Below are positions 17,334 through 25,796 of a stretch of 26,173 nt of DNA, in pieces. Positions within the stretch are counted from its first letter, which is position 1. Each line of letters begins with the position of its first letter. Both the position numbers and the translations under genes were made by a program. The DNA lies in the IMG/VR virus record IMGVR_UViG_3300045136_000889, positions 1 to 26,173 of that record; one strand, 5' to 3'. Under the pieces are notes generated by a model. It was not told where the DNA came from. It ran no database searches and saw only the letters and a program-made list of their open reading frames with translations. This stretch comes from a virus.

Positions 17334-17888
17334 ATGGCTGGATACAACCCGGCTTCAAACACTACTTCCAACTTGCCTCAGAGCCGCGTGATCTATTATG
17401 ACAAGCGGTTCATTGAGAACTTGAAGGCTCAGACCCCGTTCGTGCGTTGCGCCGAGCGGCGTGAACTCCCTCTCAATAGCGGTAATCAGCTCGAACTGTT
17501 TATGTACAACACGTTCGGTGCGAATACCGCGCAGGTTGCTGAAGGTACGGTGCCTACAGGCATCTCCGCTTCGGTCGGGACTACGACCGCAACCATCGGA
17601 GAATACGCGGACTACGCTAACTTCTCCTCCCTCTCCCTTGCTACCGCAATCGACCCCGTGGTCGAGAACGTTGGCCGCGAACTTTCGTATCGCCTCGGAC
17701 AATCTTTGTCCGCAATCACCCGTGCGGTTGCTGACGGTGCAAACAGCATCGACAGTTCCGTTGCGGTTGCGATTGCTGGCGGCACGAGTATCGCGCTCTC
17801 TAACATCCGCGCTCAGGTCCAGTCCTTGGCTGGTCGAGCGGTTCAGCCTTTCAATGAGGCCGAGGCTCTTTTTGCGGGCGTCATCCAT
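17334..17888 (+). CDS. Major capsid protein, exon 1 (residues 1-185)
   Basis: AGGAAG precedes the ATG by 8 nt. The exon encodes MAGYNPASNTTSNLPQSRVI, then PFVRCAERRELPLNSGNQLE and ATIGEYADYANFSSLSLATA, the pattern of HK97-fold coat proteins with a P22/T7-unlike N-arm and an E-loop-like segment. It ends GVIH (codon CAT, 17886-17888), immediately before an intron whose first bases create a TAA stop. Spliced to 18543-19025 the gene encodes 345 residues. Without splicing a 185-residue truncated product would result. The role is inferred from the position after the scaffold gene and the match of exon 2 in frame. Confidence 0.85.
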
Positions 17889-18542
17889 TAACATAAGGGT
17901 GGATGTAAAATCTAACTAAATCGGTGGACATCTCATAGAAGTTATGAGACAATACCGAGGTAAGATTCCCAAAAGATATGTACAACGAAGACAAAACAAA
18001 ATGGTCGTATTTGGCCGGTATGGTTGATGGTGAAGGTTGTATAAGTATTTGGAGAACCGAGGCCCGAGCTCATGATTTTGAAACCTCGGGAAAAACCTAT
18101 GGGTCTTTCAATCTCCGAATACAGATTTACAACACCAGCATTGAATTAATGAAGTGGCTAGTAGCAAACTTTGGTGGTTCCTACAATACCCGAGAACACG
18201 CAAGCGATAAGCACAAGAACTCTTATAACTGGCGTCCAAAAGGGGAAAACAACACCAAGCAAATGTTACTCGGCATTTTGCCGTATCTCGTAATCAAACG
18301 AGACCAAGCGAAGCTGGCTCTTAGATATATCGAAATCCCGCGCAACTCTCCAAGAGAGCGGGAAATCATATACAAAAGAATGAGAATCCTCAATCAAAAG
18401 GGAAAAACCGTAACGACTAATACGTTAGAAGGACAGATTGATGGTTGGGTTTCGTATCCCGAACACGCAACCGCAACTCTTCCTAAGATAGAGTCTGAAC
18501 TCCCGAGTGATCGGGAGAGTGCCCCTACAGTGATGTAGGACG
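17889..18542 (+). mobile_element. Group I intron in the major capsid gene
   Basis: All core elements can be read. P1: exon CATCCAT (17882-17888) pairs with guide GTGGATG (17899-17905), ending in the required U-G pair at the 5' splice site. P10: AGG (17896-17898) with the 3' exon CCT. P3: TCTAAC (17911-17916)/GTTAGA (18424-18429). P4: CGGT (17922-17925)/ACCG (17954-17957). P5: TCTCATA/TATGAGA (17931-17949). P6: GGT/ACC and TTCCC (17966-17970)/GGGAA (18400-18404). P7: GACT (18415-18418)/AGTC (18492-18495), with the S element AAGATAGAGTC. P8: AGGA/TCCT (18430-18433, 18481-18484). P9: CTCCCGA gtga TCGGGAG. P9.2: CCTACA gtga TGTAGG. It ends in G (18542). The homing endonuclease gene sits in the P6 loop. 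Confidence 0.93.
17978..18538 (+). CDS. LAGLIDADG homing endonuclease, 186 aa, intron-encoded
   Basis: YLAGMVDGEG (residues 11-20) is a LAGLIDADG motif with the conserved acidic residues, followed by an alpha/beta body (FNLRIQIYNTSIELMKWLVA) and a LLGILPYLVIKRDQAKLALR helix typical of the LAGLIDADG_1 group. A single motif means it acts as a homodimer. Such enzymes cut the intronless allele so that the intron copies itself by repair; some also help splicing. It starts just after P6a and reads through P3', P7, P8 and P9, with its stop (18536-18538) in P9.2. No good Shine-Dalgarno is seen. Confidence 0.9.
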   Translation: MYNEDKTKWSYLAGMVDGEGCISIWRTEARAHDFETSGKTYGSFNLRIQIYNTSIELMKWLVANFGGSYNTREHASDKHKNSYNWRPKGENNTKQMLLGILPYLVIKRDQAKLALRYIEIPRNSPREREIIYKRMRILNQKGKTVTTNTLEGQIDGWVSYPEHATATLPKIESELPSDRESAPTVM

Positions 18543-19025
18543 CCTAAAACACACTTACCTTTTGCTGTCGGTGATTTGCTCAACGACAGTTCCAACAACT
18601 CCGCAATTGACGTTCTGAAGCACACCGTTCCCGGTTTGCAGAGAATGGACGACTTGGTTTCCGTTGATTTGGCGGATACCTTGGAGTTCCCTGCTTCCGG
18701 TGTGGCGTTCTTCCAGTCCAACCTTGTTACGTTGACCACCGCGTATCAGGGTTCGGCAGCCAGCATCGTTGCGTATCGCACGTACATTTTCGGTAAAGAC
18801 GGTGTTATCGCGGTTCGTCTCGGCGGACGCGGTGACAACGCTATCGAAGATGGTAACTGGCGAAATATCGACGTGAACGTGGTTCAGAATGCACCGATCT
18901 CCGTAGCCGATCCTTCCGGGTTGATTCCGGGATGGTGCAGTTACCGAGTGCACTATACCGCATCTCTGCCTCCTGACACGACCATGCGTCTCCGCTATAT
19001 CGACGCGACCAGCGCGATTAGCTAG
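18543..19025 (+). CDS. Major capsid protein, exon 2 (residues 186-345)
   Basis: Exon 2 begins CCT AAA ACA, in phase with exon 1, and encodes PKTHLPFAVGDLLNDSSNNS, then AIDVLKHTVPGLQRMDDLVS and a C-terminal beta-rich part (VAFFQSNLVTLTTAYQGSAA, RTYIFGKDGVIAVRLGGRGD) to ATSAIS. The joined VIH-PKTHLPFAVGDLL reads smoothly. The frame from TTG 18576 alone would make a headless protein with no start signal, so it is an exon, not a separate gene. It carries most of the P- and A-domain of an HK97-like coat protein (inference). Confidence 0.87.
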   Translation, partial: PKTHLPFAVGDLLNDSSNNSAIDVLKHTVPGLQRMDDLVSVDLADTLEFPASGVAFFQSNLVTLTTAYQGSAASIVAYRTYIFGKDGVIAVRLGGRGDNAIEDGNWRNIDVNVVQNAPISVADPSGLIPGWCSYRVHYTASLPPDTTMRLRYIDATSAIS

Positions 19026-24230: not shown

Positions 24231-24680
24231 ATGAGCGACCTACACACCACAATAAATGCAGAGCAACTGAACAGTCAGTCAAATCCAACCCCGGTTCCCG
24301 CTACTTTGGAAGAGCGCAATGCTACGGAAAACACAAGCAACGCTACATGGAACACTTTTGTGGCTCCTGTGGGGAGTCCTAAGTCTGTTGTTTCTTCTGT
24401 GCTCGATAATCCCGGTACGGTTGCGGGTCCGCCGAGTGGTTCTCCAGATGTTGCTCCCAAAACCAGCGATCCGGCGCTAATCATCACGACAGCGGACGCG
24501 AGAAAAACATATCAATGGCCAGATGGGTCGTGGCGACAATATCCCGTAAACCTGACGGCGGAAAATCTAGCCTACGGAACCGGACATCTCTACCAAAATG
24601 CAGGCGGATTTGGTGGTCCCGTGAACAATCCAGGAACTTACCCGCCTAGTCCGTTCAACCCACCTGTGGCGCAACACTAA
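24231..24680 (+). CDS. Hypothetical protein, 149 aa, VVSSxxDNPG family
   Basis: Starts MSDLHTTINAEQLNSQSNPT one base after the previous stop. Residues about 52 to 61 read VVSSVLDNPG, matching the 82-residue protein at 23644, and the N-terminal DLHTxxxAxQ also matches. The C-terminal half (YQWPDGSWRQYPVNLTAENL, NPGTYPPSPFNPPVAQH) is specific to this copy. Stop overlaps the stop of the convergent DNA methyltransferase. Probable structural or accessory virion protein (inference). Confidence 0.75.
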   Translation: MSDLHTTINAEQLNSQSNPTPVPATLEERNATENTSNATWNTFVAPVGSPKSVVSSVLDNPGTVAGPPSGSPDVAPKTSDPALIITTADARKTYQWPDGSWRQYPVNLTAENLAYGTGHLYQNAGGFGGPVNNPGTYPPSPFNPPVAQH

Positions 24681-25759
24681 TCGAGGTCGCTGACTAGGAC
24701 TTGTTCTTGTTCCGTTTGTTGTGGACTAACTCTTAAAATTCGCTCATTAATGAGAGATTCATAGGCGGGATTGAGCTCGCAACCTAAATACTGTCTGCCG
24801 TGTTGACGCGCAACTTGGGCAGTTGTGCCCGATCCCATAAACGGGTCAAAAACGATATCTCCGGGTCGGGACCCTGCTAAAACACATGGTTCAATAAGAT
24901 CCGGTGGAAAGGTTGCGAAATGAGCGCCACGATAGGGTTTTGTACTAACAAACCAAACAGAGCGTTTGTTGGCCCTACGTTCAAGATAGCTTCCTGTATC
25001 CTCATTACCCGAATGGATTCGCGTCCCATAGCTAGAATGTTTGTTGCGGCCCCCGAAACACGCCTTCATCGGGCCGTTAGTTTTTCCAGGTACTCGGTTA
25101 CTACCCACCTGATTGGGTAAGTTTGTTTGGGCAACTCTGGCCAGAGTTGATGGTTTACACGGCTCCGCAATCGCATCTCCGTCAAAATAGTATTTTGGTG
25201 ATTTGCTCAACAAAAACAAATACTCATGCGATTTCGTGCACCGATCTTTGACTGATTCCGGCATCGGGTTCGGCTTGGCCCAAATAATGTCCTGACGTAG
25301 ATACCAGCCATCGGCGCGAAGCGCGAAAGCGAGCATCCAAGGAATTCCGATGAGATCCTTATATTTTATTTCGGAGTGCTTAAAAGCAGAGGCAGGTCGC
25401 TCTTGGCGGTTATCCCACCCCCTTCGCGGCAAATAATCGCAATTTTTTTCTCGTTGATTGTTTGTTTTGTTGCTCAATTCAGGTCTGTTTCCATAATTTC
25501 CCCAAGACCCCCAGTAACTATCCCCAATATTCAACCATAGCGTCCCATCATCCTTGAGCATCTCTCGCACCAATCGAAACGCATCCACCATTGTTTTAAT
25601 ATATTCTTCGGGAGTCTTTTCTAATCCTATCTGGCCATCAACACCGTAGTCCCGTAAGCCGAAATAGGGTGGGGATGTGACGCACATTTGGATTTTCACG
25701 CCATCAGAAATCAACTGCCTCATAGAGTCTTGGCAGTCTCCGAAAATAATCTTATTCAT
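24677..25759 (-). CDS. DNA methyltransferase, N4-cytosine/N6-adenine (beta-type), 360 aa
   Basis: From ATG 25759 the protein begins MNKIIFGDCQDSMRQLISDG. Motif IV TSPPYFGLRDYG lies at 28-39 and motif I FDPFMGSGTT at 304-313, so the order IV then I is the beta class. SPPY rather than DPPY favours N4-methylcytosine. CELNPAYESLINERI near the end is motif II-like. It methylates DNA using SAM, probably protecting the phage from restriction; no endonuclease partner is nearby. A GTG 18 bp further upstream would lie inside the promoter, so ATG 25759 is chosen. It interrupts a run of plus-strand small genes. Confidence 0.93.
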   Translation of the reverse strand: MNKIIFGDCQDSMRQLISDGVKIQMCVTSPPYFGLRDYGVDGQIGLEKTPEEYIKTMVDAFRLVREMLKDDGTLWLNIGDSYWGSWGNYGNRPELSNKTNNQREKNCDYLPRRGWDNRQERPASAFKHSEIKYKDLIGIPWMLAFALRADGWYLRQDIIWAKPNPMPESVKDRCTKSHEYLFLLSKSPKYYFDGDAIAEPCKPSTLARVAQTNLPNQVGSNRVPGKTNGPMKACFGGRNKHSSYGTRIHSGNEDTGSYLERRANKRSVWFVSTKPYRGAHFATFPPDLIEPCVLAGSRPGDIVFDPFMGSGTTAQVARQHGRQYLGCELNPAYESLINERILRVSPQQTEQEQVLVSDLD

Positions 25760-25767
25760 ATCATCTA

Positions 25768-25796
25768 ATAATACCACAATTTGTAGCTTTTGTCAA
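25768..25796 (-). promoter_or_regulatory. Near-consensus sigma70 promoter of the DNA methyltransferase
   Basis: On the minus strand TTGACA (plus 25791-25796), 17 bp, then TATTAT (25768-25773). It is the best promoter in the window. Transcription would start around 25761, only a few bases before the ATG at 25759. It overlaps the start region of the divergent gene at 25799. Confidence 0.75.

Follow-up and report, generated by a model that had tools for sequence, protein, structure and literature searches.

Introns in the capsid genes of phages, intron-rich capsid genes of giant viruses and intron-rich phages are already known (PMC3706429, PMC6247863, PMC12363816). In LittleE, a mycobacteriophage of cluster J, RT-PCR and protein sequencing of the capsid have proven that the capsid intron is spliced out. 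Like the intron described here, it is a probable group I intron in a phage major capsid gene and has a putative LAGLIDADG endonuclease, but it ends in G, is a single intron and has its endonuclease gene on the opposite strand, whereas the intron in the window (the whole stretch of 26,173 bases that was analysed) ends in A and relatives contain several introns in the gene (PMC3706429). Faustovirus E12 has a capsid gene with 12 introns, five of them group I, of 396-3256 bp. The major capsid gene in the clade of the window is likewise filled with introns; Faustovirus, however, infects a eukaryote, and short inserts consisting only of a guide were not reported for it (PMC6247863). The Jug phages contain 18.5 group I introns per genome, with splicing backed by metatranscriptome reads. 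They resemble the window clade in being rich in group I introns but differ in that the introns are distributed over many genes and average about 206 nt (PMC12363816).

Two further systems bear on the unusual features of the locus. The 23S rRNA of Coxiella burnetii contains a self-splicing group I intron that, as far as the citing paper relates, lacks the canonical terminal G, as does the window intron (Raghavan 2007, cited in PMC3006202). As described there, it is a single case in a bacterial rRNA, whereas in the present phage gene the terminal G is missing from 20 of the 52 introns of a single family. An engineered group I spliceozyme, made from the Tetrahymena ribozyme, removes a separate intron that has no core of its own, which is the task proposed below for the neighbours of short inserts in relatives of the window; the spliceozyme is man-made, whereas the case of the relatives is natural and the core lies just downstream in the same gene (PMC4094466). 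These short inserts are more surprising than the window intron itself.

Genomic setting

The window is a virus record with genes for a terminase, an SU10-type portal and a major head protein. The closest cultured relative found is the Tunturiibacter phage Tunturi_3, a podovirus with an Acidobacteriota host; its capsid protein is 63% identical to that of the window and its capsid gene has no intron. The source of the window is a soil phage, kin of a phage that infects Acidobacteriota. A scan of genome contigs yielded one relative only, inside a metagenome bin, which has little bearing on the host. Elsewhere in the window are a gene for an HNH-type recombination endonuclease VII (1932-2219; PF02945, E=1.8e-24) and a DNA methylase gene on the minus strand, opposed to the flanking genes (24677-25777; N6_N4_Mtase, E=6.9e-51). 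The left end of the record (1-345) is a short-period repeat whose minus strand reads as pentapeptide-type repeats (ANLSDANL...).

Table 1 Capsid locus of the window: exons, intron, structural elements and endonuclease gene
Feature	Position	Strand	Evidence or partner
Major capsid protein exon 1, 185 codons	17334..17888	+	phrog_1357 major head protein, E=2.7e-16; spliced alignment
Group I intron, 669 nt, last base A	17889..18557	+	spliced alignment to intronless relatives; sibling covariation; model hit
P1 exon strand CATCCAT, final U	17882..17888	+	pairs with 17899-17905, last pair U.G
P10 strand AAGG	17895..17898	+	pairs with exon 2 CCTT, 18558-18561
P1 guide strand GTGGATG	17899..17905	+	pairs with exon strand, 7 bp
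P3 5' strand CTAAC	17912..17916	+	pairs with GTTAG 18424-18428; covaries across siblings
P4 5' strand TCGGT	17921..17925	+	pairs with ACCGA 17954-17958; ten-sibling alignment
P5 hairpin TCTCATA/TATGAGA	17931..17949	+	ten-sibling alignment
P6a 5' strand TTCCC	17966..17970	+	pairs with GGGAA 18400-18404; start of endonuclease gene in loop
LAGLIDADG homing endonuclease gene, 186 aa	17978..18538	+	PF00961, 23.5 bits (cut-off 23.1); phrog_5046, E=1.6e-21; PDB I-CvuI, I-CreI
P7 5' strand GACT (guanosine-binding helix)	18415..18418	+	pairs with AGTC 18492-18495; invariant in siblings; model hit
P9 hairpin CTCCCGA/TCGGGAG	18500..18517	+	ten-sibling alignment
Second P9 hairpin (previously P9.2) CCTACA/TGTAGG	18524..18539	+	ten-sibling alignment
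Intron 3' tail CCTAAAACACACTTA, previously read as exon	18543..18557	+	CTAAAC motif common to siblings at other sites
Major capsid protein exon 2, 155 codons + stop	18558..19025	+	spliced alignment; 323 of 340 residues identical with L001

Intron boundaries

The capsid reading frame is closed by a stop where exon 1 ends and opens again further downstream. Capsid homologues without an intron exist (at most 94% identical to the window protein) and were used to place the ends of the insertion by a purpose-written spliced protein-to-DNA alignment in which the 3' base was given no weight. With both of two references the intron comprised 17889-18557. Its removal yields a capsid that aligns with the product of the intronless relative L001 without a single gap, which was obtained only with the end at 18557. 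A previous reading of the window, made from the sequence only, had placed the end at 18542, giving an intron of 654 nt with a terminal G and a capsid of 345 residues. That removal restores an open capsid frame is correct, but the intron is longer and the protein shorter. The homologues do continue across the junction, as that reading expected, except that the intronless relatives compared read VIHPFAV there and not VIHPKTHLPFAV.

An intron ending at G18542 would retain the terminal G and an open frame, with five additional capsid residues (PKTHL). We consider this end very unlikely. PKTHL is missing from the intronless relatives compared, and CTAAAC, which would then be exon, is conserved within the introns of siblings at other sites. 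If sibling introns ended at the upstream G, a stop would arise in L007, L061 and L082, the last of which occupies the same site as the window intron, and a frameshift in L071. P10, whose existence had been noted correctly, would be shorter, with 3 bp to the exon 2 previously claimed (CCTA) instead of 4 bp. Because the intronless relatives, the CTAAAC motif and P10 agree, the 3' site is 18557/18558. The final base of the intron is thus, by homology, A18557. To our knowledge, a terminal G is nearly universal among group I introns. Its absence does not disqualify the window intron, since another group I intron that lacks it is recorded as self-splicing. As the unspliced frame contains a stop, it follows that the supply of capsid protein would depend on splicing.

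Group I fold

The fold was examined in an alignment of ten sibling introns. Paired positions were occupied by complementary bases in 97.8% of cells; shuffles gave 75.6% and slid controls 35-43%. Because the structure was taken from the window before the pairs were counted, the share of paired cells leans towards it; not subject to this bias are the changes on both sides of a pair, seen in 24 of the 36 pairs. No shuffle reached the observed values. P3 alone occurs in at least six compensated forms (CTAAC/GTTAG, CTAGC/GCTAG, CTTGC/GCAAG, TTGAC/GTCAA, TCGAC/GTCGA and TCGGC/GCCGA). The window intron contains the P3-P7 pseudoknot together with P4, P5, P6 and P9; P7 does not vary. The helices P3, P4, P5, P6 (as P6a), P7, P9 and P9.2 of the sequence-only reading are confirmed by the alignment and its perfect 7-bp P1 with a final U-G pair stands, while for its P8 a candidate helix was found.

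At the gathering threshold Rfam identified nothing in the window. Under relaxed conditions its group I model (Intron_gpI, RF00028), which had been named as a check, gave a weak match of 22.9 bits (gathering threshold 50; E=0.0017) that, owing to the endonuclease gene within the core, was misplaced at the 5' end. One sibling intron, with 55 bits, passes the RF00028 threshold. Since Rfam performed weakly on the window intron, a family-specific covariance model was built. The model of the 3' domain, constructed without the window, matched positions 18406-18539 with 72.8 bits (E=3.5e-16). This match and the covarying fold bear out the assignment of a group I intron to the major capsid gene; neither of the findings named beforehand as telling against it was made, as covariance-model support is present and homologues are continuous across the junction.

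P10 and the terminal A

Of 52 capsid-gene introns of the window type, 32 have a G at the corresponding last position and the remaining 20 an A. L082, L124 and L239, siblings inserted where the window intron is, likewise end in A, and P10 of L239 extends over 8 bp at the guide, G.U pairs included. A P10 of at least 3 bp adjoining the guide was found in all 16 distinct introns that end in A, as against about half of 30 that end in G (p=0.0009, by site p=0.013; only contiguous P10 was scored and the introns are not independent of each other). The window intron, with AAGG opposite CCTT, conforms to this pattern, which suggests that P10 may fix the 3' site where the terminal G is missing. A missing terminal G goes together with a strong P10 in this family, and the role of the G can be examined by mutation.

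Introns in the capsid gene of related phages

A DNA pattern for the window intron type retrieved 21 contigs, nearly all of which contain such an intron in this capsid gene. When the scan was queried with a piece of exon only, introns were present in 36 of 70 full-length capsid genes. The spliced frame was free of stops and the unspliced frame stopped prematurely in all 86 intron-bearing locus entries, some of which represent the same contig. A second intron type, compact and often about 200 nt long, is more broadly spread and is also frequent in this gene; 50 of 54 show U at the 5' site and a terminal G. Its pattern (TCTGATTGACTTG...GAGACTAAG...GATAGTC; L103-L215) matched 113 stretches in IMG/VR, and 31 of these loci also contain this capsid gene. 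Within this clade, the capsid gene acts as an intron magnet. In relatives, complete mobile introns, introns free of an endonuclease and inserts without a core share sites within a single essential gene.

Short inserts without a catalytic core

The capsid genes of relatives contain 38 inserts of 33-98 nt, of which the window has none. Examples are those of L080 (3910-3944), L068 (2803-2838) and L090 (8834-8874); others occur in L250, L259 and further relatives. They are too short for a catalytic core, but they possess a P1 with U.G, a P10 and a terminal G, the U and G ends being present in 22 of the 23 first examined. At the splice sites they thus resemble group I introns, without being complete ones. 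In these 23 inserts P1 averages 7.35 bp, compared with 3.27 bp in shuffles, and contiguous P10 averages 6.3 bp, compared with 0.95 bp. U was favoured when the 5' boundary was chosen; without this preference the same boundaries were obtained, up to sliding within identical bases. A core-bearing intron follows 20-112 nt downstream of 37 of the 38 inserts (58 distinct genes), and at the last the contig ends (permutation p<5e-5, uncorrected for relatedness). In the scan with exon only, each of the 18 genes with a short insert had a core-bearing intron as well; one of these genes is an artefact of a contig edge. A 30-nt insert in L098/L237 was discarded as the remnant of a longer intron, truncated to its tail where the contig stops. 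Insert and core are jointly absent in near relatives, in the comparisons of L035 with L259 and of L044 with L250.

These observations could be accommodated if the inserts are satellite introns that consist only of a guide (P1 and P10) and splice-site bases, each of which would be removed by the ribozyme of its downstream neighbour. We regard this as fairly probable. The window intron would then be the complete, endonuclease-bearing form. Since inserts share some of their sites with complete introns of other phages, the comparison suggests that they may have decayed from complete introns. The tails of the inserts paired no better with the downstream intron than shuffles did, and no recognition sequence was found.

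Instead of being spliced, the inserts might be skipped by ribosomes, as in gene 60-type bypass. The gaps bypassed in known examples have lengths that overlap 33-98 nt. Bypass is nevertheless rejected as highly improbable because conserved codons, for Met (AT/G) and Trp (T/GG), are interrupted by the inserts at residues 54 and 314; nor does it agree with guides to both exons far above the level of shuffles, with the U and G at the splice sites or with the group I core that closely follows nearly every insert.

If neighbouring ribozymes do remove the inserts, intron and catalyst would be separate in a natural group I system. Such a system would be nature's equivalent of the engineered spliceozyme, and it would parallel, among group I introns, the proposal that spliceosomal introns originated when introns lost their cores. 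In the open-access literature searched, no description of core-less group I satellites was found.

Proposed splicing and homing

Homology fixes the ends of the intron, its fold covaries, the pairings are present, the spliced frame is open, the endonuclease belongs to a known family, and relatives have near-identical alleles with and without introns. The locus very probably represents a mobile group I intron at 17889-18557 that is spliced to give the 340-residue capsid protein and spreads by LAGLIDADG-driven homing. After transcription, exon 1 would pair with the guide of the intron to form P1, with U.G at the 5' site. Guanosine bound to P7 would attack after U17888, and the freed exon 1 would attack at A18557/C18558. 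As the usual G is missing from the last position, we infer that the 3' site is positioned mainly by P10, AAGG with CCTT. The joined exons would encode the capsid protein, and the 186-residue enzyme would cut capsid alleles that lack the intron, into which the latter would spread by homing.

That the capsid gene is instead broken, or makes two proteins from unspliced RNA, through a dead or free-standing endonuclease insertion is extremely unlikely: splicing is predicted from sequence, and translation of an endonuclease frame that overlaps the core could hinder folding, but the ribozyme fold covaries, removal gives an exact 340-residue frame, the same intron type occurs with intact spliced frames at many sites of the capsid gene in many phages, and the 12 related records with short inserts showed no further full-length capsid copy.

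The endonuclease gene, absent from the sequence-only reading, starts in the P6 loop, crosses the 3' half of the ribozyme core and reaches the P9 region. Its product is a LAGLIDADG protein with a single motif whose nearest solved structures are I-CvuI (E=2.6e-4) and I-CreI. No close relatives of it were found in IMG/VR, and a DNA pattern search, with a pattern that was too narrow, gave no matches. Among the relatives of the window, near-identical capsid alleles (97-99.6%) occur with and without introns, as expected of homing. A capsid intron of 1202 nt in L071 (1799-3000) encodes two LAGLIDADG motifs in one long frame across the core.
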